From: Symbiodinium natans
Taxonomy: Eukaryota; Sar; Dinophyceae; Suessiales; Symbiodiniaceae
DNA length: 64,000 bases
Reading direction: 5' to 3'
NCBI GenBank assembly: GCA_905221605.1
Contig: CAJNDS010001735.1
Location: 309,136 to 373,135 of the forward strand
Position numbers and translations under genes: made by a program. Every line of letters begins with the position of its first letter. Position 1 is the first letter of the stretch. Positions 2,357-40,889 of this stretch are shown piece by piece. The notes beneath the pieces are model-generated. The model ran no database searches. It saw nothing but the letters and a program-made list of their open reading frames with translations, and was not told the DNA's origin.

Positions 2357-2468
2357 ATTAGCCGACAGTCCCAAGCATATGGCATCCAGGTGCTCCGACA
2401 CGTCGGAACACGGGACACTGATGCCACCCCACAACAGGTGCTTGGACACCAGCCTCGACGGGTGATCT
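2346..2468 (-). pseudogene. C-terminal end of YR pol, separated by the LINE
   Basis: Reading minus-strand from the left copy of the target duplication, the frame of the RNase H domain continues with ADHPSRLVSKHLLWG and runs about 40 codons to a TGA inside repeat B1. The same codons appear at the other side of the LINE as CADHPSK followed by LINE sequence. The N-x-A-D-H-P-S-R pattern is a usual RNase H end in this element class. This piece therefore shows that the LINE landed inside the pol gene. Confidence 0.75.
2455..2468. repeat. Target-site duplication, left
   Basis: TCGACGGGTGATCT, identical to 14182-14195. It directly abuts the LINE's poly(A) end, read as T's on the plus strand. Confidence 0.9.
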
Positions 2469-2581
2469 TTTTTTTCATTCTAACGCGTTCACTGAGTCAG
2501 TGATTCGGCGGGCGCAACACACACAGTTGGTGTGGCCATTATGGCGCGCCGGACACCTACCGCCTTCCATGGCGGCGCGGA
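2469..2581 (-). other. 3' UTR of the USP-LINE
   Basis: 113 bp between the USP stop codon and the poly(A) end. It holds compact palindromes: AACGCGTT (2482-2489) and CACTGA-G-TCAGTG (2490-2502), candidates for the RT recognition hairpin. Confidence 0.6.
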
Positions 2582-3739
2582 CTATTGCCGCGAAAAGAAA
2601 AGTATGTACCAGTTGCGATTTATATGCTGTACATCCCTAGCCGTGGCGTTGAATGGCGTCCTACCATCATCTACCATCTGTAGGGCCGAAGTTGCGGCTC
2701 CTTTGTCAAAGGCCTCAGCAATCGTCTCCACCTCAGAAGAAGAACTGCTCTGTGGTTTGAGACAGAAGCATCTATAGTGCCCAGTGTGTGGGGTGTCCCC
2801 TGTGTGTACAACACCAGAGATGAGCCGGTATTCGCTCGTGCTGAGTTGTTGGGTATTGCCGTCTTTGAAAAAGGGAACTCTGATGACTGGATTGACGGTG
2901 ACCGGGCTGCGGACCTTCTTAATACGACCACCCTTTTCCTGAAAACGCAGAAGCTGTAGACTGAGTATCACGGGAACGTCAGCCAGTGCGGTCACATATT
3001 CCTCGTTGCGAGGTCCCGGCTGTACGCTCCAGGAGTTCAGCGCCAGCTGTGTCGTGGTCTGACCTGTGCATGGCAAAGGGATCAGAGGCACCGCCGTGTT
3101 CCAAGCCCGGACTGTGGCCGGCTCCCGTTCACTAACTCCGGAAACCCTGGACTCCCATCTGCCCAGCAAGATCCTAGGGACCCCGTCCTTTGTTAGATGT
3201 TGCAGAAGTTCTGCAGCATCATGCTGTTGGTGGAGGTCACGCCAGCCTTGTAGAAGCTGCATGCAGTCTTTTCTCCTGTTTAGTTGCTGGGGCTTGACAC
3301 ATTTGGTCAGCGCATTAAGCATGGGGCGTAGACATCCAAAGCCCGCTTTGTCCGGCGGCCTGACTTGACCAAACAGGTGCAGCAGCGCTTGGATCATGGA
3401 GTTGAGGTAGCAAAGGTTGGATGGGTTTTCAAGCACACAATGCTGATGTTGCATAGGGCATGGTGCATCAGTGACTTTTTCCCCCTGGCCCTCTGCTTTC
3501 TCCTGGCTATGGGATTTAGCGTCCGCCCCCTGTGCTGGCTGACCTGTCCCCTTCAGCCATTCCCCTATGCTCCGTGATCTCCTTGAACCAGGACCACTGT
3601 CGCTAGGGATGTTGGGGCCGTGAGGCGGCTTCCCGGGGTAAATGTTCTTTGCAAGATCACGGTGCAACACACCCTCAGGCAGACACTCCAAACCCAACTT
3701 GCCCTTACTAGTAAAAGTACTTTGGCGAGAAGGCTTCAT
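2582..3739 (-). CDS. Ubiquitin-specific protease (USP, peptidase C19) encoded by the LINE
   Basis: A 385-residue cysteine protease predicted to remove ubiquitin from proteins. The Cys box is at residues 105-120 (NPSNLCYLNSMIQALL, catalytic Cys110). The QQHDAAELL motif at 171-179 matches the QDAxEFL motif of USPs. VILSLQLLRF is at 257-266. The His box GDTPHTGHYRCF spans 314-325 (His321), and VDDG at 356-359 supplies the Asp, followed by the terminal beta strand NWYILFF. The fold is compact and lacks the CxxC pairs of many USPs. Its ATG overlaps the TGA of the RT gene in the sequence ATGA, suggesting reinitiation after termination. The first 95 residues are low-complexity and unassigned. No stop or frameshift interrupts it although neighbouring frames are damaged. 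Family assignment is firm; activity is inferred. Confidence 0.88.
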   Translation of the reverse strand: MKPSRQSTFTSKGKLGLECLPEGVLHRDLAKNIYPGKPPHGPNIPSDSGPGSRRSRSIGEWLKGTGQPAQGADAKSHSQEKAEGQGEKVTDAPCPMQHQHCVLENPSNLCYLNSMIQALLHLFGQVRPPDKAGFGCLRPMLNALTKCVKPQQLNRRKDCMQLLQGWRDLHQQHDAAELLQHLTKDGVPRILLGRWESRVSGVSEREPATVRAWNTAVPLIPLPCTGQTTTQLALNSWSVQPGPRNEEYVTALADVPVILSLQLLRFQEKGGRIKKVRSPVTVNPVIRVPFFKDGNTQQLSTSEYRLISGVVHTGDTPHTGHYRCFCLKPQSSSSSEVETIAEAFDKGAATSALQMVDDGRTPFNATARDVQHINRNWYILFFSRQ

Positions 3740-6700
3740 TGCCTTCTCGTCGCGTCGATGGCCCGCTGTAGGTCCTCTGGAAGTGGCTTGTGGCTTCTTT
3801 CCGGGCGGATCCTGGCTCCTATGAGCGCGGTGGCCGCTGTCTCCGTGAGAGCATGGAGTGCCTTGTTGATGTTGGGCCGTGCATCGGCGTCCAGGAGACT
3901 GTCAGCACGAACGTCGTGGCTCCTGGCCTGTCCTCCTTGACTCCGCCTAGAGCATGGAAGCGCTGGATGACGTTGGGCTTGACGGCCTCTCGCATCAGCA
4001 GTTGAACTGCCTCCTTTGCATCCTGATGAGAGAGCGGGTTGCCCTCTCTGGGCTCCTGGAGTTTCTTGTCCGGATTCCATCTCGTGTACGACCACGCCAT
4101 TGGTTCTGCTACGAGCATCTTCCTCTGAATGAGTGGCGCCTGTGCCGCCTTGTCGCCCTCCATCTTCGCAAGCCGAGCTTGCAGCTCCAGCAGGAGCGAT
4201 CCCAGGAGAGCCTGGCGAAGGCTGCAGGTGCACTTGTTCTGCTCTCGGCTCTCCTTCCAGGTGGCCGTGGTCTTGACCAGCTGAGGTATGATGCCCATCG
4301 CTCCAGAGTCCATCCAGAGAACCCAACTTCTGTCGGCCTCCAGCAGTTGCAGCGCCATGGCGTGCTGGCTGACATACTTGGTTAGAACTTGCACTTGCTT
4401 TGCCAGCTGCTGGTTTGGGGCCGGGATCGGCTCCCTTTTTGCTTTGCCTGGGCCTTTGCCCTCCCTGCGACGGAATTTCCGCCCCTCGCCGTTCTCCTCC
4501 TCGGTCGGCCTGTCCCTCATTATGAGTTCCATCGGGCTGTGCTGCCCCCACATGTTCGCCACTTCCTGCAGTGCTTGGTCGTCCATGGCGCGACAGAAAT
4601 GCGATTTGCAAGAGTGGCAGGCACTTTTGAGCGTGAACCTTCGGGGTTTTGTGGTAGGTCACTCCGCAATGCCGGCATGGTCTAGCTAGCGGCAAACCGT
4701 GTACCAACTCTGCAAATCCCTCAGCTCGCTTCCAGGCCTCCTTGTGCTGGTTGGCACAGTGTCGCCTCCAGTCCTGTTGATTCGTCAATCGCTGAAGGCA
4801 AAGTCCACAGTGCCGTGTCAGCATGTCAATGACCTCGCTGTCTCCTGCCTCCATTTTGCCCTGCCTGTGCACGTCGGGGTTGAGCTGCCTGGCAAGGAAC
4901 TCATCAGTGATGCAAGTTCTCACATCCCTGGCGACGGGGGCCGTGTCCGGCGCCCCAACCTTATGCCATGCTGTGGCTAAGGCTGTTTGGAAAATAACCG
5001 TGCAGCTCCGAGTGTGCCTGTCGGGTTGGTACACCATGACCTCACAAAGGTCGCAGACACTGTCACGGGTGAGGTGAGATTTATACAGCGCACACTCAGT
5101 GTCCAGGTTGCCAATACTTGCATGCCATATGTGTGAGTGCATTCTCTTGATGTGCTCCTTAACCGAGCCTCCCTTAGCAATCCACTGTCCACAGAAGCCA
5201 CAGTGCTGAATGAGACTCCTAGCGTGATCTCTGACGATCTGCAGCTTAGAGTCCGACTGCAGTAGTTGCTTCGCCACTTCAGGTCTACGCAGCAACGGGA
5301 TCGTCGGCTCCTCCTGGGCAGGCTGTACCGGTTGTTGCCGAGCGATGGTGCTCGAGGGATGGGTGTCTTCAAGTATGCGTGGCTCCCTGTCTGAGTGACC
5401 CCTAGGGGGGGTAGCGATGTCCTGCTGTTCGGCCTCCCGAGTGGGGCCGGGTGGCATCTGCCAGCCACAAACGTTGTTGAGGATGTGATTCCTCAGCGCG
5501 TCCCATGAACCCGTCTTAAGACCACAATGAATGCACTGTGGCATGCCACCAGCAGAGTGATCTTGTTGTTGATACATGTCATCATCATGCCGGTGCGAGC
5601 TCACATACACCTTGTGGACCCTTCCCCTGTGCTGTCTCATTGTTTTGTTTGATGGGAAGTACACTCCGCAGACTGGGCAGGCCACCGGCTGCGATTGTTG
5701 CGCGGGCACCGGGATCAGCCTGGAGTCGGGCTCCGCATCGATGTTATCTGTGTGGAAGATGAGGTATTGCTGTAGCATACTTTCCCAATACTGGAGAGTT
5801 TGTGGCTGGTTGATGATGCTCGCTTCTGCAACCCGAAGCTTGTCAAGTTTGTGCCGAATCCGTTGCACAGTGGCATCTATAGGATCCTGAACACCTAATC
5901 TTTGCCGAAGTTGCTTGTTAGTCTCATGCGAGATGTGGGCAGGTGAGTCCGCAACGGCTCTTAGTTGACGATAGAACCAACCCCTGAGGAGTGCCACCGC
6001 CTTGGCAGAGGGCGCGAAAGCAATGAGGCCAAATGTAGCACTCGATGCAGCACAGGCCTGCCAGATGCGTACTCTATGCGCTAAGCCGAAGACTTTCCTG
6101 GACCTGGTCGCCTTTTTGATTTTGCCAGTTCTCTTGTTAGCTTCAGCAATACGGTAGCCTACCACTTTGTGCGCTTCCGTTTGGAGGGAAAGGTGCGTCC
6201 CTAGGTATGTAGTGTAGCAGGCAATGGGGATTAGCGCCTCGCTCCCATCAGGGTGTCGCGCCCGCCACCATTTTTTCCCGTCCTTATACACTACATAGTC
6301 CTTGAGCGCGCGTCTGGCCCCAGGTCCGCAAACTTTCAAGAGCAGGACTGTTTTGGTAAGGTTAACCAAAAGCCCCATGTCCTGCATGACCCCCAGAAGT
6401 TTGTTGATGAAACTGCTACGTTGGGCAATGTCCGTGGAGTTTTCAATGAGCCATTGCACTAAGGTATCGTCGGCAAAAGTGGTTGCTTGTCTGTGGGGGC
6501 CTGAGAGGGCATCCCCCAGCCGCTCCAGCAAAAGGGTCGATATTGCCACCCAAAGCATGGGGGCGATCTTACATCCTTGGCGGATGCCTCGCGTTGTACC
6601 CACTGTGCTTTGTTCCTGATCACTGATAATGTGATACCGTGATGTGTCTAGGAGGGAGATAATCTCGGCCGTCATGCTTTCTCCCGCACCAAGGTCTTTT

Positions 6701-8016
6701 AGCGACTGGGCTAGTGCTTGACGGTTTACTCTGTCAAAGGCCTGTTTGAGGTCAAGGCTGAGGATGGCTCCCCCGACGCAGAGTTTTGTGTTGTCCGGAT
6801 TTTCCTCCCTGTCCCTTTGGGCGAATTTGCTGCTGTTTCCTCGTCCGTAACACCTTTTGAAGTTGTCAATCCACACCTGCACTCTAGCCAAGGCATCGTA
6901 CAAATCCCTCCCCGGCTGATAGGCAAACTGCGGCACCCTGCGCAGCTGGGGCCGAATCAGCTCATAGAGTCTGATTTTGAGAAGCCCTGCAAGGGCTTTG
7001 GCATCAGGAGACATGAGGCCTATTGGCCTGAGCGATGAGGGCTCGCATGGGTCTTTGCCCGGCTTTGGGAGCCAGACTATCCACGCGTCGGTCCACTGAA
7101 GAGGGAGTGTGATCCCTGGTTGGTGAGAATGCTGGTCAAATGCCATCTTCAGCAGCCTCGCAACCTGTGGGGCCGCTAATCGCCATGCAGAAGCAGGAGC
7201 TACTCCTGGAGGGACGGCTTTCCCAATCTTGATGGACTTCAGCTGCGATTCAATTTCCTCAACCGTGAAAACCAAGTTAAGACCTTGCTCCTCCCTAGCC
7301 GGCTGCTCTGTGTCCGGAGCGAAAAGATCTTCGCTATAGCTCACCAGGGCTTCGTGCTCCTGTTGGAGAGTGAGGAGTCGGCCGCTTGGGTCCTTAATCA
7401 TGACCCGTTGTCTAGGTTGCCAGGGTGCTAATCTCCGAACAACCTGATACACGGTTCGTTGGTCCCCGTTATCAGCTGCCTGCTCAGCCTTTTGAAGTAG
7501 TTGGAGGATGTCTTCGCGCTTCTTTTCCTTGCATTGTTTCTCAGCAATTTTGACTTGCTTCCGCAGGGCAACCGTAGCTTTCCATCCCCGAAAGAGTCTG
7601 GATTGGAAGTACCACCAGGGGTTGTTTTCCAGGTTTTCCCTTTCCGGCTCCCCTGGGGGCCGTACGGTGACGTACTCGGCCTCCCTTCGCTTCTGCCATA
7701 AGTGCTGCACAATGGGGTTGGATGGAGGGTTGGGTTTCCTCTCCAATGGGTAGTGGTTCTGGCAAGTGTCAAGAAGGGTGGAGTTGATGTTGGCTGGGGT
7801 GGGGTCCGTGAGGGCGTTGAGGGCTGTCGTAAGGGCAAGCTGCAGGGTATGTGCCCCCTCCTCCCGATTACGTATCTCGTGATCCAGTTTGTGCCTGTCC
7901 AGCTGGGGGTTCGTGGATCTTTTGGGGAGCATGTGATGGTTCATGAGACGGATGGTTGTGTGAAGCGCCATGTGACCGACGTGCCGTCTCCAGTTGCCAA
8001 TTGGTGGGGCCGTCAC
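3736..8016 (-). CDS. LINE reverse transcriptase with C-terminal zinc-finger array
   Basis: A 1426-codon frame. Residues 1-20 continue the endonuclease C-terminus; 300-620 hold the RT: SSLRPIGL, motif A LSLDLKQAFDRVN, motif B TTRGIRQGCKIAP and the active site ATTFADDTLV (near residue 514, DNA about 6460-6480). From roughly residue 779 to 1115 there are six Cys/His clusters, four close to C2H2 (for example CPVCGVYF...RQHRGRVH and CGFCGQWI...EHIKRMH). From about 4640 to 3900 this frame turns into Gly/Ala/Arg-rich, non-protein-like sequence, while an alternative frame (3819-4586) looks protein-like, so a pair of compensating indels is likely. It probably starts within the endonuclease, not at the listed ATG. 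Confidence 0.85.
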   Translation of the reverse strand: MTAPPIGNWRRHVGHMALHTTIRLMNHHMLPKRSTNPQLDRHKLDHEIRNREEGAHTLQLALTTALNALTDPTPANINSTLLDTCQNHYPLERKPNPPSNPIVQHLWQKRREAEYVTVRPPGEPERENLENNPWWYFQSRLFRGWKATVALRKQVKIAEKQCKEKKREDILQLLQKAEQAADNGDQRTVYQVVRRLAPWQPRQRVMIKDPSGRLLTLQQEHEALVSYSEDLFAPDTEQPAREEQGLNLVFTVEEIESQLKSIKIGKAVPPGVAPASAWRLAAPQVARLLKMAFDQHSHQPGITLPLQWTDAWIVWLPKPGKDPCEPSSLRPIGLMSPDAKALAGLLKIRLYELIRPQLRRVPQFAYQPGRDLYDALARVQVWIDNFKRCYGRGNSSKFAQRDREENPDNTKLCVGGAILSLDLKQAFDRVNRQALAQSLKDLGAGESMTAEIISLLDTSRYHIISDQEQSTVGTTRGIRQGCKIAPMLWVAISTLLLERLGDALSGPHRQATTFADDTLVQWLIENSTDIAQRSSFINKLLGVMQDMGLLVNLTKTVLLLKVCGPGARRALKDYVVYKDGKKWWRARHPDGSEALIPIACYTTYLGTHLSLQTEAHKVVGYRIAEANKRTGKIKKATRSRKVFGLAHRVRIWQACAASSATFGLIAFAPSAKAVALLRGWFYRQLRAVADSPAHISHETNKQLRQRLGVQDPIDATVQRIRHKLDKLRVAEASIINQPQTLQYWESMLQQYLIFHTDNIDAEPDSRLIPVPAQQSQPVACPVCGVYFPSNKTMRQHRGRVHKVYVSSHRHDDDMYQQQDHSAGGMPQCIHCGLKTGSWDALRNHILNNVCGWQMPPGPTREAEQQDIATPPRGHSDREPRILEDTHPSSTIARQQPVQPAQEEPTIPLLRRPEVAKQLLQSDSKLQIVRDHARSLIQHCGFCGQWIAKGGSVKEHIKRMHSHIWHASIGNLDTECALYKSHLTRDSVCDLCEVMVYQPDRHTRSCTVIFQTALATAWHKVGAPDTAPVARDVRTCITDEFLARQLNPDVHRQGKMEAGDSEVIDMLTRHCGLCLQRLTNQQDWRRHCANQHKEAWKRAEGFAELVHGLPLARPCRHCGVTYHKTPKVHAQKCLPLLQIAFLSRHGRPSTAGSGEHVGAAQPDGTHNEGQADRGGERRGAEIPSQGGQRPRQSKKGADPGPKPAAGKASASSNQVCQPARHGAATAGGRQKLGSLDGLWSDGHHTSAGQDHGHLEGEPRAEQVHLQPSPGSPGIAPAGAASSACEDGGRQGGTGATHSEEDARSRTNGVVVHEMESGQETPGAQRGQPALSSGCKGGSSTADARGRQAQRHPALPCSRRSQGGQARSHDVRADSLLDADARPNINKALHALTETAATALIGARIRPERSHKPLPEDLQRAIDATRRQ
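3819..4586 (-). pseudogene. Probable true frame of the RT gene between two indels
   Basis: A 255-codon frame beginning MDDQALQEVANMWGQHSP. It has normal hydrophobic spacing and helical segments (QQLAKQVQVLTKYVSQ, EAVQLLMREAVKPN), unlike the Arg/Gly/Ser-rich translation of the longer frame over the same bases. It most likely represents the original linker between the zinc fingers and the RT gene's C-terminus, knocked out of phase by one indel near 4600 and returned near 3900. No domain recognised. Confidence 0.55.
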
Positions 8017-8102
8017 TTTGACGTTCTTGGCTTCCCAATCAGCAGATATGGCTCTGGTCAGGATGAAGTCGATTTGGCTCTTTCCCGCCCCCCGCCCCCC
8101 CG

Positions 8103-9428
8103 TTAAATTGTACTGGGTAGGCGTGGCTGGACCGCGCCATGTGTTAAGGGCAACCAGACCGAGATTATCCAGGAACGTGTTGAGGTCCCCGGGGCCAGTG
8201 CGTCTGCCCCGACATGGAATGGGGTCTGGCAGGTTGAACGACCGACTAATGGAGCATGTGGAGTGACTTCGGCCTGGAAATCCCCCACCACAACCACCGT
8301 GTTGCGCATGGAGAGACCCCTAACACAACCACTCAGTTTTTCAAGGAGTTTAGCCCGCTTTTCCCGCAGGACTTCGGGGCGTTGTGCAAAATTATGTGGG
8401 TGCTGATAGCAATTAACCAATTCGACCCTCCCTTGTGCAGTCGAGATCTGTGTGCGCAGGACTCTACCTGGAATCACCTCCTCATGCCGGATGTGTGTTG
8501 CTTGGTGTCTCGGATGCACCAAGGTGAGAACACCATCAGCTCTGGCAGCTGTTCCTGAGTGTACCGCAAACCATCCTTCCAGTTTATATGTGGAGCTTGT
8601 GCTAAGGTGCGTCTCCTGCAGGCATATGAAGTCGTATTTAGTACTTTGCTGTTTGAGCAGCTCTCGGAGTTCTTGCCACATGAGGACCGATAGAGCTCCG
8701 ACGTTCAAGGACAGGACATGAATCCTTGCGATCCCGTGTCTACCTCCCCGCGCGCCTCTTCTCTTATACTGATCCAGCGGCACTCTCTGCGCTGCTCGCA
8801 CCTGAACATCAGGAAGTTGTGACCGCGTGCACCATTTCCCTCGGTACCAAGCCCCTCCCTGCACTCTAGCTGTGTGAACTGCTCTACGAAGCGCTCTCTT
8901 GGATCCCGGTAGGGTGTGCGCGTGATCGGCAATGTGATCTGTGGCAGGTGCAGACCGAGCTCCCTGCCCAAGGCATAGGACGCACAGCAGCCTCAGCGCG
9001 CGGCTCCATATAGTACAATGTGGCGCTGTTTGTCGATTATGTCGTGAGTGTCGCGTAGGAGGTGTCTCTTTGGCTCGATGCATGAAGCTGTGTCTCGCCA
9101 CGCCTAGGAGACATGTGCTAAGCAGGAATGCAAATGCACTGTGGAAAAACGGCGTCCTGCCCGGTACATCCATTAAACAATTTTGCGGCTCCCACACGGG
9201 GCCGAGGCTCATCCCTTCTCTCAGCCTTTTAGTCATTTCCAAGTCGTTCTTCCATTGCCTCCCAGTGCTGGAGGAGCTTATGGGCTCGCCGTCTTTGGTC
9301 TGCCGGTCGTAGTGCCCTGAGGTCATGTAAGAAGGCCTTGCACATCTGAGTGGATGTGAGCGCCGGCGCTGCGCTTGTAATCGTCCAGGTCGATGATCTG
9401 GCTGGTGTCCGCTGCACGGAGCACCCAT
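8103..9428 (-). CDS. LINE AP-like endonuclease (EEP family), frame broken
   Basis: About 441 codons. The endonuclease starts with HVLSLNVGALSVL, continues with the catalytic FICLQETHL block, then VVVGDFQAEVTPHAPL. After that the frame is lost near 8190. The expected continuation (DLNTFLDNLG, then SQIDFILTRAI) lies in other frames at 8190-8020, with a G-rich run at 8088-8103 on the coding strand. The enzyme nicks target DNA to prime reverse transcription. The first 220 residues are basic and unassigned and overlap the end of ORF1. Endonuclease and RT were probably one polypeptide. Confidence 0.8.
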   Translation of the reverse strand: MGAPCSGHQPDHRPGRLQAQRRRSHPLRCARPSYMTSGHYDRQTKDGEPISSSSTGRQWKNDLEMTKRLREGMSLGPVWEPQNCLMDVPGRTPFFHSAFAFLLSTCLLGVARHSFMHRAKETPPTRHSRHNRQTAPHCTIWSRALRLLCVLCLGQGARSAPATDHIADHAHTLPGSKRALRRAVHTARVQGGAWYRGKWCTRSQLPDVQVRAAQRVPLDQYKRRGARGGRHGIARIHVLSLNVGALSVLMWQELRELLKQQSTKYDFICLQETHLSTSSTYKLEGWFAVHSGTAARADGVLTLVHPRHQATHIRHEEVIPGRVLRTQISTAQGRVELVNCYQHPHNFAQRPEVLREKRAKLLEKLSGCVRGLSMRNTVVVVGDFQAEVTPHAPLVGRSTCQTPFHVGADALAPGTSTRSWIISVWLPLTHGAVQPRLPSTI

Positions 9429-12400
9429 TGCTGAGGTGTCCTCGGCTCCTTCGTGGGGCCGTCAATCTGCTGCTGGCCATCACCAGAGGCCGTCTCATCT
9501 GTCCGTTGCCTCTTTGAGGCCGGGGGCACCACTGTCTCATCCTCCGTCTCGCTCCATTCCAGGAGCTCGGCTGCCCCTCTGGGAAGACGATGTCGGCGGA
9601 TGGGTTGTGGGACCTCAAGGGCCGCTGGCCGTGATGGCCACCATAGCATAAGCTCCTACTGACTGCTAATTGGCAGCGAAGAGCTGCACTAAAGGCCGAT
9701 GGTGGTACCTTTTCAGGGCAAGGGATGGCTGCCGTCATGGCACTTAGCTCATGCACTGCAGCTTGTGTGTTCCTGCTTCCATGGAAGTCCATGCAGCAGA
9801 TTACGCAACTGAGGTACAACCAGATACAAATATGCATAAGTTTTGGTGTCCGGCATAAAGGCGCGCCCCCCGCCATCTTCCCACCTGCGGAAGTGCATGC
9901 GTTGGTAGCATGTATAGGTCCTTCCCCCGTGGGGGGCCCGGGGGAAACCTTCACCTCACCCTTGCCTTGGAATGTAGTCTTCTTCTTATTGTAGTAGGAA
10001 GGGCCGGCGGACTTAGGACCGCCGCGGTGACTGAGGAATTTCTGGTAAACGTCGTGAATTCGGAGGGGTGTATGGAGGGGTCTGCGTTTGTACTTTCCTT
10101 TAGTGCGTCTATGCGTTATCCACTTATTGCCCGGCTTAGGTTCGTTCCTATATCGGATCAGTAGTGAAAACGCAGTGCACCACCCCAGCAAAATCCCTCT
10201 AGGCCAATCCTCCTTAGATCTCCTAGATTCAGTCGACCACTGATCGTCTTCCACTGAGGGGTTGGCAGATCCGGCTCCCCAGCAGGGCCGTGCATGTAGG
10301 ATAACTGCCTGCGGGCGGTTGACATGCTCCGGGGGCACTGATGTGGAGATAGGCTGGGATTTGGCTAAGAGGGTGTGCATGTGGTGGCTTTCACGCATGT
10401 GAGTTGTCGGATAGTGCCTTTTCTGTGCAGCATATCTAATATGCTGATCGCTGCTATTCTGGGACCTGGTGTTATTCCTGGGCTGTCCAACTCCTAGACC
10501 TGCGCCCTGATTTTCACCAGCCACGAAGGAATCGATCACCTTTTCGGCACTCCCTGTGGGGGCCGTCGGAGAGGAGAAATGGGGTGTGCCTCCCATGTCG
10601 GTCGGCAGGTCCCGGCTCATGATTAGGCGTATGTGGGAGGAGCCCTGGATGTCGCACCATTGATAGCGCTGTCTGTCCCTGACATCAACAATCCAGCGGA
10701 TGTCCCCTAAACTGATGCCATGTGCCTGCAGAAGAGGGCTGCAGGCTAGCTCGATGGCCGAGGCAAAACCGTCTTGTCTGACTTGCACCCCGTAGCGATG
10801 ACCCGGTTCTCGCAAGATCTCAGTGAGGACACCGTTAATGTCATCACGTCGTGTAGGACTGTCCGGTGTTGCATCCGTCCTGGAGGTGATTGTCGGGTCT
10901 CGGGCTGATCTGCGGGCCGGGGTACGGCTCCTGTCCTGCGCGCTGCCCTTGTCGTGGTCCTGTTCATGGTCCTGAGGCTCGGTGACCGCAGTGCTGGAGG
11001 ATGAGGCCGTCTGGGCACGCTGGGCCGAAGGAGTGGGAGCGCTGACGGAATTCGCATCCAGGAGTGTCCACGGCCACCCCTCTGGTGTGTCGCGTTCCCG
11101 GGTTCCCTCAGCCGGAACCCTCTGTGCTGGGGCGTCCCGCTGAGTGGTGCCGGCTGATCGGCTCCCGCGGCTGCCTGCGCCAGCCTCCCTGGTCTCTCTT
11201 TGTTCACGTTGTTCCCGACGTCTGGCTAGCTCAGTGCGTGTCCGTCTCCTCTCACCATTGGGCCGAACCCGTGCCCGAGGGTGTCTGCGCGGGCTGCGCG
11301 GGCTGTTTGCCATCTTGAGCCTAATCCTTGCATTATCCCTGTTTCGGGCTGACGGGGCCGAGGGTGAAACGAATGTGCTGGTGTCGTGTCGCCTCGTCCT
11401 GTTCCCAACGGGTCTAGGGGCCTCTTTAAGCAACCTTCTATGGTCAATTGATTGCCTAAGTGAGATGGGCACTGACAACGTACGGCAGGGTACACTCGGT
11501 CTTATGTGGTGCTCGTGTCCTAGAGGTCTCCACTCAAGGGTTCGCGCCTGCGAGTCCGAAGATGTCCAGGCAGTGTCTGCACAAATTGGATGTGGCTCGG
11601 AGGCAGCTTTGACCTGGGTGCAAGATCGCACTGTGGGAATGCAAGTGTCTTGCAATGGGCACTTTGGGTGGGTGATCCATGTGTCACACAGTCCATGCAG
11701 TGCAGGCACTCTCGACATGTATTGAACAGCTGGCATTGACTCCATTGCGTTGCACAATCGGCTCGCCTCTAGGGGGCCGTCAATGCAGTCAGGCCTATAC
11801 AGGTATGGCATGAGCGCCTGAAAAAACTCTGGCCAATGCGTCTTCCACTGCAGCTGGAGATACAGTGCTCGGGGCAAATTTTGCAGCCCATCGTGCAAGT
11901 GGCTGGCGAGGCGGGAAACGCCGGCAAGGATGTCTAGCTCAGCCTGACCCTGTGTCGTCCATAGGGAGTGCATCCAGGATTCAACGAGATCTCCTCCTGT
12001 TTGCCAGCTCTGCACCTGTCCGAGCTTGTCATGCGTCAGCAGGGCACCAACCAGTGACCATATCCAACGACCGACGTTATCCGTGAGGAGCGGGCTGTCG
12101 ATGTGCTGGCCCCGGATGTCGTAGGCTTCACCCTGCTGAGCTTTGTGGTATAGGTCGTGCCTGAACTTGTAGTGTCCCTGCATCTGGAAGGCCGTGAGGC
12201 TCGCCCCCGGGTTGCTAGGCAAGAGCTCGCCCAGAAGCTGCTTTGCTTTGCCCAGGTGTAGCCTTGCCGCAGCATTTAGTCCCTGGTGCGGCGGCACCCT
12301 CTCGGGGCCGATTGTTTGGGCCCTCCTGACCGCACCACGTGCGTCGCCTCCTCTTCGTGCACCACAGACCTCACCGCTTGTCTCCTCAATCGGATGCTCA

Positions 12401-14118
12401 TCCGCCTTCATTGCGACGCTCTGCAGCGGCAGCCCCTGAGGTGTGTAGTTGCCAGGTGCAGCCTTTCCTGGCCTCTCGTTGTCGCTTGTCTGTGTGGCCT
12501 GGTCACACGTGACCGGGCCACACTGTATAGCGGCATGCTGCACAGCGGCATGCTCTTTTGCTGGGATTAACTCCTCCTCGTCCGTTGTTGTCTCCGATGC
12601 CACCGGGTCAGCTGTCAGGGTCCGTACCTCGTTCATCATGTCAGGTGTGGTGCCGTCCACGACTGGATTAATTGCAGGGGCCGGCACATCGGCCTCCTCC
12701 ATGTGTGGCTCTCCTTGGTCTTGGGCCTGGATCTTCACAGCCTGAGCCGAGGAAGATGAGGGGCCATCACTGACGGTGCCTGGCTGTCCGTCGCCCTGCG
12801 ATTCCGCCTCCTCAGAGTGCCATTCGGTACGCTCGGTCCACGAATTCCAGCCATGCCACCACCCTGTCGACTCCGTCGCTTCATGTCGCCACTCATTGTG
12901 GCCTTCCCACGACTGCCAGCCCCGTTGCCTCAGCTCCGTGGCCGTTCTGCGATGGCGACCATCTGCTCGGTAGTGCGAGCGAGGGTGCTCCCTAGGAGGG
13001 AGACCTCTCTCGGCTCTCGTGGTTTGCCTCATTTGAGCCCGAGGTCTGGAGGTGGAGATGCTCATGCAGGCATTGCATACTGGCGGCTCTGTACGCTCTG
13101 GTGAAATATGTGGTGCAGGCAGACTGCAAATTGAGTGTCCTGCCCTGGAGCGGAGGTCTGCATGTGGTGGGGCCGAAAGCGGCTCCCCTGCATCAGGCAG
13201 CGTCTGGAGTGCCCTAATGCTATTGGACTGACAACTGCACTCTCTCGGATGGCTCATGCTCTCACCTACATCAGACCGACTGCAGCTATGCACAGTGAAG
13301 GACATGTAAGTAGCAGCCCATCCCGCATGCCAGCATGGTATACACATCACTCTCACAGACTGTTCAGCACCTATGATCATGACTTCGTGTCGAGCAAGAC
13401 CAAACGACCGTGCAGGCGCTGAGGTCCCGACCGGAGGTGCAACACGGATCCACTGTGGACAGATCTCTGCATCCGCTGTCAGCCAGGCTTCCAGGGTCTG
13501 TTCGGGAGGCTGCGAGTGCTGCACAGGCCAGTTGATCCCTAAGGTGGTGTTTGCTGACAGAGGGGTATGCGTGGCGTCCTTGCATCGGCCTTCCCCCTGT
13601 TCGGGGGCCGCATGTTGTTCAGGCAGTGTACACAACACGCACACCGATCGGGAGGTACCGAGTGGCTTGGCATTATGTCTAGCTGGACTCGGATCTTGCA
13701 CGGTTACTGGGGCCCCTGCTGGAGGTGCGTCACGGATCCATTGCGTGCAGATCTCTGCAGCCATTGTCATGTATTCTATCGAAGACTGCTTGGGAGGCTG
13801 CGAGTGCTGCACGGACCAGTTGATCTCTAAGGTGGCGTTTGCTGACCGGGGCCCTTGCGTGGTGTCCCGGTATCGGCTTTCCCAGTGCGCTGGGGCCGTT
13901 TGATGCTCTGGCAGGGTCTCCCACATTGGCAGCAGGGCACACATCCAAACAAGCATGCATCTTGTTATGCACTGACGTTCCCACTTTGCATGTTTCCCTC
14001 TCAAAAATCTCTCTCTCCTTCTTGGCACTTTCCAAGCAAGTTTGGTGCTGTGGCTCAGCACCGAGCCAATCCATGGCATGAAAACTACGTCCTCTCTCAC
14101 TTGTGTGAAGAGAGGCAC
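9229..14118 (-). CDS. LINE ORF1 protein with KptA/Tpt1-like module
   Basis: A 1629-codon frame starting MPLFTQVRED 63 bp inside the LINE. Residues about 40-250 contain two diverged copies of a repeat (SANATLEINWSVQHSQPP and SANTTLGINWPVQHSQPP). The middle is Trp/Arg/Glu-rich, then helical (AARLHLGKAKQLLGELLP, RALYLQLQWKTHWPEFF). A basic Arg-rich stretch follows (near 11290-11200), and near 10840-10620 the segment LREPGHRYGVQVRQDG, then SLGDIRWIVDVRDRQRYQW, matches the N-terminal part of RNA 2'-phosphotransferases (KptA/Tpt1). The ADP-ribosyltransferase half with its QGHS motif is not evident. A gag-like nucleic-acid chaperone role is inferred from position. The frame becomes doubtful after about 9660. 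Confidence 0.65.
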   Translation of the reverse strand: MPLFTQVREDVVFMPWIGSVLSHSTKLAWKVPRRRERFLRGKHAKWERQCITRCMLVWMCALLPMWETLPEHQTAPAHWESRYRDTTQGPRSANATLEINWSVQHSQPPKQSSIEYMTMAAEICTQWIRDAPPAGAPVTVQDPSPARHNAKPLGTSRSVCVLCTLPEQHAAPEQGEGRCKDATHTPLSANTTLGINWPVQHSQPPEQTLEAWLTADAEICPQWIRVAPPVGTSAPARSFGLARHEVMIIGAEQSVRVMCIPCWHAGWAATYMSFTVHSCSRSDVGESMSHPRECSCQSNSIRALQTLPDAGEPLSAPPHADLRSRAGHSICSLPAPHISPERTEPPVCNACMSISTSRPRAQMRQTTRAERGLPPREHPRSHYRADGRHRRTATELRQRGWQSWEGHNEWRHEATESTGWWHGWNSWTERTEWHSEEAESQGDGQPGTVSDGPSSSSAQAVKIQAQDQGEPHMEEADVPAPAINPVVDGTTPDMMNEVRTLTADPVASETTTDEEELIPAKEHAAVQHAAIQCGPVTCDQATQTSDNERPGKAAPGNYTPQGLPLQSVAMKADEHPIEETSGEVCGARRGGDARGAVRRAQTIGPERVPPHQGLNAAARLHLGKAKQLLGELLPSNPGASLTAFQMQGHYKFRHDLYHKAQQGEAYDIRGQHIDSPLLTDNVGRWIWSLVGALLTHDKLGQVQSWQTGGDLVESWMHSLWTTQGQAELDILAGVSRLASHLHDGLQNLPRALYLQLQWKTHWPEFFQALMPYLYRPDCIDGPLEASRLCNAMESMPAVQYMSRVPALHGLCDTWITHPKCPLQDTCIPTVRSCTQVKAASEPHPICADTAWTSSDSQARTLEWRPLGHEHHIRPSVPCRTLSVPISLRQSIDHRRLLKEAPRPVGNRTRRHDTSTFVSPSAPSARNRDNARIRLKMANSPRSPRRHPRARVRPNGERRRTRTELARRREQREQRETREAGAGSRGSRSAGTTQRDAPAQRVPAEGTRERDTPEGWPWTLLDANSVSAPTPSAQRAQTASSSSTAVTEPQDHEQDHDKGSAQDRSRTPARRSARDPTITSRTDATPDSPTRRDDINGVLTEILREPGHRYGVQVRQDGFASAIELACSPLLQAHGISLGDIRWIVDVRDRQRYQWCDIQGSSHIRLIMSRDLPTDMGGTPHFSSPTAPTGSAEKVIDSFVAGENQGAGLGVGQPRNNTRSQNSSDQHIRYAAQKRHYPTTHMRESHHMHTLLAKSQPISTSVPPEHVNRPQAVILHARPCWGAGSANPSVEDDQWSTESRRSKEDWPRGILLGWCTAFSLLIRYRNEPKPGNKWITHRRTKGKYKRRPLHTPLRIHDVYQKFLSHRGGPKSAGPSYYNKKKTTFQGKGEVKVSPGPPTGEGPIHATNACTSAGGKMAGGAPLCRTPKLMHICIWLYLSCVICCMDFHGSRNTQAAVHELSAMTAAIPCPEKVPPSAFSAALRCQLAVSRSLCYGGHHGQRPLRSHNPSADIVFPEGQPSSWNGARRRMRQWCPRPQRGNGQMRRPLVMASSRLTAPRRSRGHLSNGCSVQRTPARSSTWTITSAAPALTSTQMCKAFLHDLRALRPADQRRRAHKLLQHWEAMEERLGND
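9323..9649 (-). pseudogene. Alternative frame near the ORF1 C-terminus
   Basis: 108 codons with an acidic-then-charged composition (LLEWSETEDETVV, SKRQRTDET, IIDLDDYKRSAG) that looks more like real protein than the Arg/Ser-rich translation of the ORF1 frame over the same bases. The ORF1 frame looks protein-like again afterwards (KLLQHWEAMEERLG). A pair of indels in ORF1 is the simplest explanation. Confidence 0.45.
13438..13893 (-). repeat. Internal direct repeat within LINE ORF1
   Basis: Two diverged copies, about 13438-13600 and 13732-13893, spaced by roughly 290 bp. Both contain GGGAGGCTGCGAGTGCTGCAC followed by a conserved block ending near TTTGCTGAC (the shared word is broken by point differences elsewhere). 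They encode the paired INW-VQHSQPP units of ORF1, so the N-terminus grew by tandem duplication. Confidence 0.7.
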
Positions 14119-14155
14119 AAAAACACACTACCCCCTCCCCCCCTCCCGACTCACG

Positions 14156-17100
14156 CTACAAACAAATTTGAGCCGGAGGCTTCGACGGGTGATCTGCACA
14201 GTTTGATGGGGAAGGAACGCGTGAGAACCAAGGGATGAACTCACACCCCACCTCCAAGCTCACAAACATTTTAAGCAGGCTTTTCACAGTTGGGGATCTG
14301 CCCCTGCATGAAATCAAAATGTCCCTAACAGCGTTGTTGTCGATGAAAGCCACGACAGGTGAGTTCGCAACCCTTTTGCCCCAAAGACGGAACGCAAGCA
14401 GCACCGCAACAAACTCGGCCTCCATTATGATTGTGTCCTTGCTAATCTCACCCAGGAGCTTCCGGACGTCGCTGTCGAGGGCGTGAGAGAAACCAGCAAC
14501 CAACACACCCTTATCATCAAACAAGAGACCGCCCACACCACAAGGCAGCACGGGGTCATCCTTCGAATAGGATGCAGCAGTGAAGACATACCAGGTTTGC
14601 TGTTTGTTGACTTGGACTAGCCTAGGGCGGCCACTGTCCAACATGTCGACTAGCGAGGTGAAAGTGTCGATGCACTCCGTCGGCAGATCAGGAGGGGCAC
14701 CACCATGGGCATACTCCGAAAGCTGCTGCAGGCAAAACTTGCTCTGACGCCCAAACAGCTGTCCACTTGCAAACTGGAGCTTACCCCTTAGCTTGAGTGC
14801 TTGAGGCACACTCATACGCCGGTCTTTCTGGGCCTGCTTCATAGTCTCAACGAGGAGCTGGACCCTTTTTTCCGTATTGCATATGGTCACACGACCCAAG
14901 TGGGCGCTCGACAGCACTATGTCAACCCCTAAAGCACAAAAGGTTTCCGCAAACGGCACATCCTTTTTCCCGCCTTGGGCCAGGTCCCAACCCAACAGTG
15001 CGAAGAGCAAGGTGATTGTTTGGTGCACATTGGCCACCTGTGAGCCTCTAGCAACCGACACGAAGTCGTCAAAGTAGTGGGACCAGCAAAGGGCGAAGAA
15101 GAACGCGCCAAGATGCCATACCGAGTTAACGGTCCTCAGAAAAGTCGACACCGACTTGACTGCCCCGAAAGGGAGGGCGTGCAGCTGAAACACTACTACC
15201 CTCTTCAGATCAGGATCCCACAGCCCAATGTACGAAGCCCAGGCCCCTGCAGGGTCCAAAGCCAGCTGCCTGTAGGCACTGACCAGGTCATAGAACCTTC
15301 CCTTGAGACTACAACCTGGTTGCGCTCGCATCAGAGACAGGCACACGCCTGCGATGACGTCGACGGTCTGGGGGCGCACAGTCTCCAATGTCTCTACGGA
15401 GCTATTGACTCCCGACCCTGAGAAGTCGTCAATCAATCTGATCTTCCCATCCTGCTCGATCCCGAACCGTCGAGACACAATGGCATCAGGTGGCAGCTGG
15501 TCCACCTCAATGGGACCTGACAGCCAGCCCCTATCGCGCTCCTCGAGGGTTTTCGTTTGGACCTCACGATCCAGGGACTCCCCTTGAGACTTGATGGTGG
15601 ACAAAAGGGCCGCCCTAGAGGTGGGTGCATCTCTTTTGAGTTGGTCAACTGTGACTGACGCCGGCTTGAACTTCGGGGCAAACACACCTGTATCAGGCAC
15701 CGGGCCTCCCAGGTTAGTACCTGAGATTACTTCATCGAAGATGGCCACATCGTCGTAGGAGGCCTCAACCATCATTGCCTTCCACAAGAGGAGACGTTTG
15801 GGCTTAAGGATCGTCGCGACCTGTTTGTGCATAGAGGCCTTCAGCGCTTCTTCCTCACTTCTAAGGTCCTGCGCAAGCTTAAGCCACTTTGCAAACTGGC
15901 GCGCTCTCAACCCGCACAGCTCCGACTCGGTCAACGAGGCATGGGTGCACACAGCATCTTTGAGTACTTGCGGCAGGGCGACCTCTAGGGTTCTGGGATG
16001 GCCGGCTTTAACTGCCTCGCGGACAAACTGTTCCGGGGAAAACGGGATGCCCCAAACCAGCTCGTTCCAGAGCTCCGAACCAACCCCACAACCTTTGCTT
16101 CCAGAACCAGCACTCGCACTCCCCTGCTTAACCGGGACCATTTGCAACAGTTGGGCGTCGGCTGGCACCGAGCGCTCGGGGCAGACGGCCACGTGGGGCA
16201 GTCGCCAGGGGTCCTTAAGGCGGGCACGCAGGGGCACCGGACAGGAGACATGAGGGGGGATCCGTACTCGCAAAATGCGAGCATGCTCAGGCACACGGGG
16301 CCCCGTCACAGAGGCCTTCGGCTGACTCCCGACCTGGCCACGGACAAGAGACAGCTGGAGCCCGGCAGGCGAGGGCGGCCTGGGCGGGCAAGCCTGAAAG
16401 AACGCTTGGGCGAGAGCACGCGCCAGCGGCAGCGGATACGCAGCCTCCAACGACGTAGAAAAACCGTTAGGCGCTGCCGGCGCCACCCCCCACGGCAGGT
16501 GACGTTGGGCGCAGGACTGCCCAGGGCAGGACTTGCAGATGCTGTCAAACGCACCCCGGGTATACGCAATGGCCGTCCACTTCGGACGACGGCTGCCGCA
16601 GGCGCAACTCTGGAATGCAGTGAACTGAAAGAGGTGTGCGATGCGTGCAAACATGGAAGTTCGCCAGTAGAGACTTTGCCGGGGGTTCTCCACACCTATG
16701 ACAAGGGCTCGGGAAGCAGCCTCAAGAACCAGGTCGGAAACACAATCATAAAGCTGGTTTGCCAAGGTGACACGGAGAAGGGCCTGCCCACCCAGCTGCG
16801 GCCGGGTTCGGAAACTTTTCCGATCGGAGAGGGGGGGGCCCTGGAACCCCTTTAATCTCCCTTGCTCGGCTGGCCGTCCCACACGGTGGAGCGAACCAAA
16901 TGCCCACACAGTTGGGCATTGCCAGCCAACGTCGAACCAACTCAACGCCTTCCGTTGTACACAAGTCGACAAGATGAACATGACAGGCGGCACCAGGCAC
17001 GCGCTTATGGTCGACGGCAACGGCGTCAAACCCAAGTTGCTTGAGGCAGGCTGAGAGCCTGGACATGCCGGAAAAGACCTCAATAATGAACGGTGGCCGG

Positions 17101-31724: not shown

Positions 31725-32959
31725 TGCTCAGCCAAGGCAGTCCGGAGCTTCTGCCTTCGGGTGGGCGGCATTCCCTGGGCTTGGTGGCCCCAAGTAAGGA
31801 CGGAGGCAACCCCTCCTCTGAAGAGGCGTACCTTGGCCGGCACACCCGGGACTCTTAGTTGTTTCAACTTCTTCTGCCGTTGGCCCGCTTTGTGCCTTCG
31901 GGCTCTCTGCACCTTGACCCTCCGGACCCGACCCAGGGCACAGTCCAGGCCTAAATCCTTCATGCTATCACAGATAGCCGGGTCCCCATCTTTGCGCAGC
32001 TTCTGGAGCTCCCTTCTGGCTTCTGCAGTGGTGCACAGGAAGCCTGTTTTCTTCAGGGACAAACGGAGGTCACTACCTTCCAGAAGCCGGCGAAGGGTTT
32101 TGTAACCTTCATAGACCGCAAACGCTGCCTGCTCAGGATATCGTGCTTCGAAATCCGCTCCAATGTCATCCACCCAGGTGTCTAGGGCGGTGATACTGCG
32201 GAGCTGAGTAGCTTCTTGCATTATTGGGTGGAGGTAAACCCTGGCCATCATTGTTGCGAAAGGGCACCCTGCTAGGATGCCCCTTGCAGGGAGGATCCCC
32301 TCCGAAAGGAGATCCTCTGCCACGAGATATCTTGTTCCCCGGTCCCGGTAGACTTGCATGACCAGGAGGGCTATAGCTGGCGGGAAGCCGGTCGCCACTA
32401 TCCGCTCCTCCAATTTGGTCCAATTAACACTGTCATAGAAAGTCTGCAGGTCCAACAGGACCGCACAGGCATGTTTGTTAGCTGCGCGGCTAACCTCCCC
32501 TCTCAGGAGTCTCTGCATGCCTGTTTCTAGACAAGTGTTACCCGGGGAGGCTTTATCCCATGGGAACTTCTCGGCAGTTTCTCGCATCCATTTCTTGACG
32601 ACCTGTGCTCTGCAGAAGCACCAAAGCCGATAGGTGATGGATGTGAGGGTTATGGGCCTTTCTATGTCAGCATTTTTGGGCAGGAGTGCCACATGGTGCG
32701 CCTGCCAGTGCTGCGGCGCCACTCCTGTGGTTTCAGCCAAGTTCAGGACTTGGGTGAGCTGTTCATAGGCCGGTCCAGGGAGGTTTTTGAGGGCAGCATA
32801 GGTGAGCCCATCAAGACCTCCTGCCTTGTCGGTGACATTCTTGAGGATGGCCTCGAGCACCTTTGTTGTGATTTTAACAGCGGGGAGGATTTTGCTGCAT
32901 CCAGCAGGGTCTGGACGATCGGGGGGGAACATTCTACCTCTCCCCAAATTGCGACCCAC
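31559..32959 (-). CDS. SL-LINE reverse transcriptase
   Basis: 466 codons. RT blocks: GGLDGLTYAALKNLPGPAYE, ERPITLTSITYRLW, motif A AVLLDLQTFYDSVNW (Asp170), motif B RGILAGCPFATMMARVY, motif C TWVDDIGADF (Asp264, Asp265) and LSLKKTGFL. This polymerase copies element RNA at a nicked target. The domain sequence begins near residue 26, where it takes over from the endonuclease frame; copy 2 shows the same frame step at the same place. The last 60 residues are out of phase with the RNase H frame. Confidence 0.85.
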   Translation of the reverse strand: MGRNLGRGRMFPPDRPDPAGCSKILPAVKITTKVLEAILKNVTDKAGGLDGLTYAALKNLPGPAYEQLTQVLNLAETTGVAPQHWQAHHVALLPKNADIERPITLTSITYRLWCFCRAQVVKKWMRETAEKFPWDKASPGNTCLETGMQRLLRGEVSRAANKHACAVLLDLQTFYDSVNWTKLEERIVATGFPPAIALLVMQVYRDRGTRYLVAEDLLSEGILPARGILAGCPFATMMARVYLHPIMQEATQLRSITALDTWVDDIGADFEARYPEQAAFAVYEGYKTLRRLLEGSDLRLSLKKTGFLCTTAEARRELQKLRKDGDPAICDSMKDLGLDCALGRVRRVKVQRARRHKAGQRQKKLKQLRVPGVPAKVRLFRGGVASVLTWGHQAQGMPPTRRQKLRTALAEQCGRQKMGNLEVALSSVGDKYQDPGRTMMVPGTPCTPHSRSVVSLTSSSKPIRKK

Positions 32960-34581
32960 TGCTTCCTCCTGGCCCCTGGGCGCTCTTCGCCTGGGAGGTT
33001 TTGGAAGGGCCGATCCAGGACTTTTTTACTCTTTTTGAGAGAACTGTAGAGAGGTCTCATCCCTTTCACTAAACCCGCTTGGAGCCAGTACTGGGCCTGT
33101 TGCTCCTTGGCTCTCTGCATCTGGAGGGCCGCCTCCTTTTGCCTGGCAACAACACTCAAAGACCGCCACTGTGGTGCTGTTGCTGAGCATTGCTGGTACA
33201 ATGCTGTGAGGAAGGCAGTACCTTCAGCAATGTCTTGACAGGCTTGGAGGGTGCCTAGGTCCGGTAGGTGCTGTTGGGAGGCGGGCACTTCTTCCAGGAT
33301 TCTGGCTATGCGCGCCCACCAGCCCACTTCAGAGCTTTTGGGGGCAGTGGAAGGGCGCTGAAAGAATAAGGGTCCCCACTGGGCCTGCACACACCAACCT
33401 CTGCCAGTCCTCGGTGCATCGTGGCAGTGCTCCAGGCTGGCCGCCCAGGTCGCCAGCTGCCAGGTGCTCTGGTCCTCTTGGGCACAGGTCCTGTCCATTA
33501 TGGCGAAGTGGGAGGGTTGGACCTCTGCTGTGAGTTTCGGGAACTGGGGAAGTTTCCAGGATTTCCATTCGCTGGCACCGTCCTTGACTTTGAGGTGCAA
33601 GGCTGCATGTGGTTTCCACGGGACTGTCCAAGTGGCAGACAGATCCACCAGGGCTTCCAGGCTCCTACTCACCACCCCAAAGTCCAGCTCCGCCCCATGG
33701 TTGCATGTAGCTTCTCCCGTGGCTACCATCCGCCCCCGCATCACCTGGATCAGCGCTGTGTCCTGAACTTCAGTCGGGTCCAGGTTCCAATCCCCCAAGA
33801 TGATCCAGGGCTCCGGGAGGGTTCTTACGAAAGCTACCAGAGAGGATAGCACCTCTGCATTCGTGGGACCATTCAGGCCTTCCGTGTCCCTCAGGTAGAG
33901 GGACACAATCGTGTAGTCCCACCGTCTTTGTCTCAGGCCCACGGCTGTGTAGCCCGCCCCTTCGCATTGGTAGGTGGCTTTTTGCCACTCCGCTATTTTT
34001 GGGAAAGGCACAGGCAGTGCCCCCCAATCTTGCGCCCTTGTCCGACAGGGAGGCCGCTCAGCATAGAGATCCCATCCTAGGGATTGCAGTGTGGCTCGCC
34101 TTCCATGCAGCAGTTCCGGTGTGAGGTGGGTTTCCTGCAGACACACCACCTTGGCTTTGGAGGAGGTTACCCACTCCAACGCCCCGTTGTTGAAACTGGT
34201 GACATTGGCGCTCATGATGCTCAGATACTGGTCAGGCGAGGCGGAAGGTTTAACCTTCTCATGGCTGGGCTCTTCTGAGTCGGTGCCCTCGCCATGTGCA
34301 AGGTCTTCCTCTCGTTCCTGCCGACCCAGCACCTGTTCCGGTGTCAAGGGCTCCTCACTTTTTGGGAGCTCAGAGGTTATCACCTCCTTTGCCTGCTGGA
34401 TGGCTTTCCCGGTGACATCCTCTCCTTGCTCCAGGGCATGCAGGACCATCCTACACCAACCCCAGGCCAGGGAGTCTTCCGCCATCACCTTCTGTTGGGT
34501 TCGATGAAGCTTAGAAGGGTGGCTTCCTTCGCCTGGAAGGGGCTCGCTTGGTCTTCCAGGAGGCTGACCACCTCCTGCCAT
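32743..34581 (-). CDS. SL-LINE AP-like endonuclease
   Basis: 612 codons, real from about residue 33. The endonuclease domain spans residues 119-330: YLSIMSANVTSFNNG, KVVCLQETHL (Glu150), DYTIVSLYLRDTEG, PWIILGDWNLDPTEV, HGAELDFGVVS. It makes the target nick. A helical linker follows (RQKEAALQMQRAKEQQAQ, LYSSLKKSKKVLDRPF) and leads to the RT. Copy 1 has lost a base near 34500 relative to copy 2, detaching this frame from the upstream gag-like frame. Confidence 0.83.
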   Translation of the reverse strand: MAGGGQPPGRPSEPLPGEGSHPSKLHRTQQKVMAEDSLAWGWCRMVLHALEQGEDVTGKAIQQAKEVITSELPKSEEPLTPEQVLGRQEREEDLAHGEGTDSEEPSHEKVKPSASPDQYLSIMSANVTSFNNGALEWVTSSKAKVVCLQETHLTPELLHGRRATLQSLGWDLYAERPPCRTRAQDWGALPVPFPKIAEWQKATYQCEGAGYTAVGLRQRRWDYTIVSLYLRDTEGLNGPTNAEVLSSLVAFVRTLPEPWIILGDWNLDPTEVQDTALIQVMRGRMVATGEATCNHGAELDFGVVSRSLEALVDLSATWTVPWKPHAALHLKVKDGASEWKSWKLPQFPKLTAEVQPSHFAIMDRTCAQEDQSTWQLATWAASLEHCHDAPRTGRGWCVQAQWGPLFFQRPSTAPKSSEVGWWARIARILEEVPASQQHLPDLGTLQACQDIAEGTAFLTALYQQCSATAPQWRSLSVVARQKEAALQMQRAKEQQAQYWLQAGLVKGMRPLYSSLKKSKKVLDRPFQNLPGEERPGARRKQWVAIWGEVECSPPIVQTLLDAAKSSPLLKSQQRCSRPSSRMSPTRQEVLMGSPMLPSKTSLDRPMNSSPKS

Positions 34582-40466: not shown

Positions 40467-40889
40467 TTTACCCGGGGAGGCTTTATCCCATGGGAACTTC
40501 TCGGCAGTTTCTCGCATCCATTTCTTGACGACCTGTGCTCTGCAGAAGCACCAAAGCCGATAGGTGATGGATGTGAGGGTTATGGGCCTTTCTACGTCAG
40601 CATTTTTGGGCAGGAGTGCCACATGGTGCGCCTGCCAGTGCTGCGGCGCCACTCCTGTGGTTTCAGCCAAGTTCAGGACTTGGGTGAGCTGTTCATAGGC
40701 CGGTCCAGGGAGGTTTTTGAGGGCAGCATAGGTGAGCCCATCAAGACCTCCTGCCTTGTCGGTGACATTCTTGAGGATGGCCTCGAGCACCTTTGTTGTG
40801 ATTTTAACAGCGGGGAGGATTTTGCTGCATCCAGCAGGGTCTGGACGATCGGGGGGGAACATTCTACCTCTCCCCAAATTGCGACCCAC
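40455..40889 (-). pseudogene. SL-LINE copy 2 RT, truncated
   Basis: 144 codons, equivalent to residues 1-140 of the copy 1 RT frame (GGLDGLTYAALKNLPG, ERPITLTSITYRLW), cut after WDKASPG before the catalytic blocks. It cannot encode a polymerase. Confidence 0.8.

Follow-up and report, generated by a model that had tools for sequence, protein, structure and literature searches.

Ubiquitin-specific protease domains in LINE retrotransposons of Symbiodinium

Introduction

SUMO and ubiquitin proteases are akin, and the conserved boxes of the ubiquitin-specific proteases (USPs) are named Cys, QHD, His and Asp. Two kinds of non-LTR element that carry an additional enzyme come closest to the elements described here, which we call USP-LINEs. 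NeSL and Utopia-1_TSP are nematode elements that encode an Ulp1-like protease (PMC4640811). Like the USP-LINEs, as far as they are described in that source, they unite zinc fingers, a reverse transcriptase (RT) and a cysteine protease from the sphere of ubiquitin and SUMO proteases in one protein, but their protease is Ulp1-like (another peptidase family), lies at the N-terminus and is associated with a restriction-like endonuclease, whereas the USP-LINEs combine a USP, placed C-terminally, with an AP-type endonuclease (PMC4640811). SymbioLINE-Dnmt elements are LINEs found in Symbiodinium that encode a cytosine methyltransferase (PMC5890265). They share with the USP-LINEs the host genus, the Exo_endo_phos and RVT_1 domains and a captured regulatory enzyme under purifying selection; in the account given there, however, the methyltransferase is in ORF1 and the elements are without poly(A), whereas the USP-LINEs have their USP at the C-terminus of the predicted RT protein and end in 7–8 terminal A (PMC5890265). 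The word 'ubiquitin' has no occurrence in the main text of that article. In three element proteins (among them L039, cut C-terminally, and L041, cut N-terminally) and in the N-terminal ORF of the copy studied here, Pfam searches gave no match to PF00145 (DNMT) or to an Ulp1 family.

Cellular USPs (USP12/46, USP21, USP2 and others) resemble the element USPs in their Cys, QHD, His and Asp boxes and in their profile matches. The element USPs differ from them in being fused to an endonuclease and RT, in being mobile and in falling on a separate side of the tree from 12 presumed host USPs. A literature search by title and start of abstract, covering sources other than preprints, Repbase, Dfam and most subscription papers, returned no LINE-encoded USP among the matches listed. 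If our reading is correct, the USP-LINEs would be the first LINE group known to us with a USP-type deubiquitinase, retained over deep divergence.

Results and discussion

The window, i.e. the whole stretch of 64,000 nucleotides of Symbiodinium natans DNA that was analysed, contains the LINE copy whose parts are listed in Table 1. Its RT matches RVT_1 with 67.3 bits and its AP-type endonuclease is recognized with 25.2 bits (cut-off 24.5), both being encoded upstream of the USP on the same strand. An RT and an AP-type endonuclease encoded in the same orientation, target-site duplications, an A-rich 3' end and unlike terminal sequences together identify the element as a LINE; the difference between the two ends was established by inspection, in the window copy and in a second copy on C2066. 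The match between these two copies extends from 14189 to 2457 of the window at 98.3% identity, with flanks that do not match, and the C2066 copy is flanked by its own 13-bp duplication, TGACGGCCCGTCA, and ends in A7. The identical 12-bp duplications on both sides of the window element, the 3' one being preceded by A8, place the USP inside the mobile unit, as the original prediction, which was made from the window sequence alone, had proposed.

Table 1. Features of the LINE copy in the window.
Feature	Positions	Strand	Remarks
3' target-site duplication	2456..2467	-	12 bp GATCACCCGTCG, identical to 14183-14194 (- strand sense)
Whole LINE copy, 11.7 kb	2468..14182	-	98.3% identity with C2066 copy; ends 3' in A8
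USP (PF00443) region	2582..3739	-	Separate 385-aa ORF here; C-terminus of the predicted frame-0 polyprotein in intact copies
Gene X, conserved +1-frame ORF	3736..4586	-	ATG at 4586 in GCCATGG; stop overlaps the USP ATG as ATGA
RT (RVT_1) and C2H2 zinc-finger ORF	3736..8016	-	Ends in the X frame after a deletion
AP-type endonuclease (Exo_endo_phos) ORF	8103..9428	-	Profile match
N-terminal polyprotein part, open frame of 1632 aa	9229..14127	-	KptA/Tpt1-like stretch, sub-threshold
5' target-site duplication	14183..14194	-	12 bp GATCACCCGTCG

That prediction also held that the frames next to the USP are broken, which is right for this copy. Compared with the C2066 copy it has suffered three frameshifting deletions, one before the endonuclease, one in the C-terminal part of the endonuclease and one near the end of gene X (the window ORF at this last place being 3819-4586), and these deletions split one long frame into the separate ORFs on which the prediction was based. 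The proposal that the USP is a third ORF was mistaken: intact copies have a single frame that runs from endonuclease through RT and zinc finger to USP, as in the C2066 copy, where it is open for 3860 aa, and a USP in a separate 'third ORF' is found only in broken copies such as that of the window. In the N-terminal part of the element, a stretch at about 10624-10833(-) of the window resembles KptA/Tpt1 (RNA 2'-phosphotransferase, PF01885), with 21.0 bits in the window and 20.2 bits in the C2066 copy for a cut-off of 26.

In a Pfam profile search, residues 103-332 of the 385-aa product of the window ORF 2582-3739(-) match PF00443 (UCH) with 61.8 bits (E 9.7e-17), above the curated cut-off of 23.9 bits that we used to assign membership. 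The residues predicted to be catalytic, Cys110, His321 and Asp357/358, lie on conserved columns: in an alignment of 20 sequences N105 and C110 are invariant, while H321, D357 and D358 are conserved at 90% or more. In 22 trimmed element USPs the catalytic Cys is invariant, and so are Q and D in the QHD box, the residues GHY and one Asp, among other columns. Compared with solved structures, the single window sequence gives a weak match (best USP35, E 0.0013), whereas a profile of the 22 element USPs gives a strong one (best USP12 at 7.9e-19; 102 chains score below 1e-4, of which the best 60 were inspected). The Cys, His and Asp boxes and the profile match thus indicate that the window domain is a ubiquitin-specific protease, complete at the sequence level.

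With the window USP as query, a search of the genome gave at least 108 rows, 10 of which, the window included, cover residues 1-385 at 98-100% identity; 12 more are at 72-98% (several are pieces of one place) and the other 86 of those listed at 26-35%. The same query matched P0001 and P0002 alone in the public protein database. When two RT searches were merged, a USP was found on the same strand, 1.86-3.7 kb 3' of the RT, in at least 73 of 134 RT places among the matches listed; in 47 of these 73 pairs the open-frame lengths given for RT and USP are equal, which means that both are in one frame. Eight of the 61 RT places without a listed USP were fetched, and six of them turned out to carry a more divergent USP (L043, L044, L045, L047, L048 and L049, of which L044 and L049 are one family and L047 and L048 broken copies). 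Of the other two, the stretch of L046 reads N, and in the 4.8 kb examined at L050 there is no USP and no X. A search of dinoflagellate genomes for RT genes followed by USP domains had been proposed with the original prediction. USP-LINEs are a possible explanation for many of the UCH-domain matches in very long frames of the S. natans genome. On C1764 (70948, 81479) and C1046 (602522, 613052), the two USP-LINE places have the same orientation and are separated by about 10.5 kb, in a tandem-like arrangement.

Database proteins also carry this combination, P0003 and P0004 having precomputed PF00443, PF00078 and PF03372 domains. In the 79 proteins among the matches listed for an RT query, the element USP profile scores below 1e-10 in 26 of the 59 closer ones (P0005-P0063) and in none of the 20 others; where named, the 59 are all from Symbiodinium (S. 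natans, S. microadriaticum, S. necroappetens, sp. CCMP2592, CCMP2456 and KB8). Fourteen of the 33 closer proteins without a USP match have X and 19 have neither. At least one of the 33, P0007, stems from a USP-bearing place (C2079), where RT and USP are in one frame, which shows that gene models can miss the USP; some Symbiodinium RT proteins may also be USP-less relatives. If one looked at the window alone, where the USP is a separate ORF, one host USP gene could have been inserted in this LINE copy or could adjoin it by chance. This explanation is refuted by the other copies: nine near-identical ones and many diverged families have a USP at the same place, often in frame, so that the one-off insertion that the original prediction had itself envisaged was not observed. 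USPs are present in other Symbiodinium proteins and the presumed host USPs fall on the other side of the tree described below, and we regard a local host insertion as having next to no probability.

The USPs of the S. natans genome and of database relatives (98 domains, 81 rows after near-copies were dropped) were placed in a tree, from which the partial domains L002, L003, L005 and L007 were excluded. The USP profile drew on element and host sequences of the S. natans genome and on four database relatives. Twelve domains with a strong PF00443 match and no RT in the lists (L001, L004, L006, L008 and L071-L078) were presumed to be host USPs. They form one side of a branch with support of 99/98, found in 100% of 200 bootstrap trees, and the element USPs form the other side, such a tree having been proposed with the original prediction to see whether they make up one clade; the bootstrap has not settled and deeper branching among the elements is largely without resolution. 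Fourteen stretches had been fetched as host: 8 were used, L082 and L083 are partial, L079 has no match, and L080, L081 and L084, labelled element-like before the tree was made, fell on the element side.

By column-based scoring, the Cys, His and Asp boxes are all kept in 71 of the 86 element-side domains, near-copies included. The other 15 comprise 9 that are cut or incomplete at the 3' end, 4 without an aligned Cys column and 2 with Ser; P0015 has Ser at the catalytic Cys, and P0019 has Ser at the Cys and Gln at the His. Decay, or an idle variant, is possible for the USP domains of these two proteins. That the element USP is in general a catalytically idle, ubiquitin-binding or structural domain would fit these two relatives, but the three boxes are retained in the great majority of domains and most of the exceptions are truncated, which makes this explanation quite improbable. 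Pairwise dN/dS in the USPs of family A ranges from 0.066 to 0.226 in 29 of the 30 pairs with dS >0.1, the exception being one shallow pair (0.631, dS 0.1); the set comprised 36 pairs, of which 6 with dS <=0.1 were left out, and included L020, L021 and L023, which have frameshifted ends. The element USPs are under purifying selection, and this comparison across copies, also proposed with the original prediction, bears it out. RT and USP distances are correlated (Mantel r 0.828, p 0.0001, n=25 proteins), even if the nearest neighbour by RT is the nearest by USP in 13 of the 25 proteins only. Together with the tree, this correlation supports a single acquisition and joint inheritance, and the simplest reading would be that one old acquisition of the USP has been followed by its transmission with the RT ever since.

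In six families the region that separates the zinc fingers from the USP contains a second ORF of 288-353 aa, gene X, with a predicted protein of about 270-340 aa, always in +1 relative to the frame of the RT and USP (frame 0), and three more (the L029 group, the L038 group and L085/L086) also have X in +1 to the USP. The X proteins of the six families are homologous (blastp E 5e-4 to 2e-38), whereas their frame-0 translations across X gave no homology apart from one 3e-4 match, at the zinc-finger end, and weaker ones; an ORF of L050 which is not X was entered in the X comparison and had no homology. Within family A, the substitutions between C2066 and L022, counted by main-frame codon position (1/2/3), are 30/28/133 in the USP and 106/29/22 in X, and the pattern flips near the ATG of X (9921 in the C2066 stretch, GCCATGG) and flips back at its stop. 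The pattern recurs in two further families, with counts of 95/30/12 in X and 41/31/111 in the USP for L038 versus L036, and of 12/2/0 and 8/2/25, respectively, for L029 versus L031. The pairs L086/L085 and L044/L049 differ by too few substitutions for a pattern to show, and L044 gave no alignment with either L048 or L047. The X proteins are basic overall (pI 8.6-10.0 in the six families), and no relative above the cut-off was found in Pfam, NCBIfam or PDB, the queries being X from six families, a profile of six and one sequence. Homology and the codon positions at which substitutions fall show that X is a conserved predicted protein, encoded in the +1 frame.

Frame 0 is kept open across X. None of the 10 loci tested, which come from nine families, has a frame-0 stop there (frame 0 was likewise open in a first set of seven loci), whereas the third frame contains 5-23, and permutation of synonymous codons within X leads one to expect 3.0-10.2 stops in frame 0 (P <=0.03 in each of the 10 loci). 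Three copies in which X is broken over frames (L030, L047 and L048) were excluded from this test, and several loci had been picked from long frames, which favours intact copies; L022, L029 and L038 entered by score, and L085/L086 were picked for the opposite reason, because RT and USP are in different frames, and frame 0 of L086 is open across X as well. The C1898/C2105 family, considered as a case in which frame 0 is closed across X, was rejected as such, since that frame proved to be open in this stretch, with its breaks upstream. Given the lack of stops, translation of frame 0 across X is probable, and the USP would then form the C-terminal end of the RT polyprotein. A long two-frame stretch in which one frame appears to be selected for openness alone, in nine families, is unusual in itself.

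We favour, with a probability of about 0.7, a reading in which the USP is a conserved C-terminal domain of the polyprotein of an old and diverse group of Symbiodinium AP-endonuclease LINEs, acquired once and preceded by a stretch that encodes X in the +1 frame, and is most likely an active deubiquitinase that would protect its own polyprotein or RNP. Frame 0 would then encode endonuclease, RT, zinc fingers, a non-conserved, stop-free spacer and the USP. Since frame 0 is open through to the USP and X is conserved in the same stretch, one RNA probably yields both an endonuclease-RT-zinc finger-spacer-USP protein and X, the latter via an internal start or +1 frameshifting. More tentatively, and at somewhat less than even odds, the stretch may have two readings, X in the +1 frame and, in frame 0, a bridge conserved in its openness alone; the bridge would keep the deubiquitinase on the RT, the split would set the ratio of X to RT-deubiquitinase, and the outcome would be an escape from ubiquitin control in a genus-wide clade of USP-LINEs.

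Two other ways of expressing the USP were weighed. In family A and in L045 the stop of X overlaps an ATG of the USP frame as ATGA, an arrangement that would allow the USP to be made as a separate third ORF by termination-reinitiation at the X stop instead of as a polyprotein domain. The X stops of L041, L042, L043 and L044 have no such overlap, and reinitiation alone leaves unexplained why frame 0 is free of stops across X in all loci tested; we therefore consider it improbable as the general route. The overlap seen in the window was likewise rejected as a general expression signal, being absent at the X stop in 4 of 6 families. Reinitiation at the overlapping ATG could also be a source of free USP in family A and L045. 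Alternatively, ribosomes leaving the zinc-finger region might slip into the +1 frame of X, so that X- and USP-containing proteins would be alternative C-termini of the RT protein. The switch between frames is sharp and located at about the +1 ATG, frame 0 remains open, and the order RT-X or RT-X-USP occurs in some Symbiodinium proteins as annotated, annotations to which we give little weight because gene models may use invented introns; an ATG, however, precedes the X core in 6 of 6 families, which fits internal initiation equally well, and frameshifting as the route to X, while the more credible of these two alternatives, seems to us rather unlikely.

The conserved boxes suggest that the element USP is most likely an active deubiquitinase, and it may act on the polyprotein or RNP to which it is fused, shielding it from ubiquitin-dependent host control; among the possible targets this one is our first choice, held tentatively. 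Since USPs cleave ubiquitin bonds, processing of the polyprotein is ranked lower, and is the least probable of the roles considered. A target in host chromatin or among other host proteins is unlikely too, if slightly less so. According to PMC11453091, the nuclei of dinoflagellates presumably make less use of histones than of viral-type and bacterium-derived proteins, and this weakens the idea of histone deubiquitination; chromatin deubiquitination in dinoflagellates is possible, and less favoured. The USP-LINEs would provide a way to ask if dinoflagellate retrotransposons are restrained by ubiquitin-dependent systems.

Other sequences in the window deserve mention. Downstream of the target duplication, the region 1616-2455 contains two direct repeats of 212 bp (1617-1828 and 2145-2356) that are 100% alike. 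The same 3' flank is found behind four further family-A copies (L010, L012, L017 and L018), with 94-98% identity over the element end and flank, and it may represent a co-mobilised flank, a duplicated locus or a nested short element. Two Exo_endo_phos-like frames at 32743-34638(-) and 40673-43000(-), which score 22.2 and 21.6 bits, a little under the 24.5-bit cut-off, are probably other LINE remnants. Finally, an open frame of 2443 aa at 55660-62991(+), with an RVT_2 match of 47.6 bits and a zinc knuckle, corresponds to a Copia-like element.
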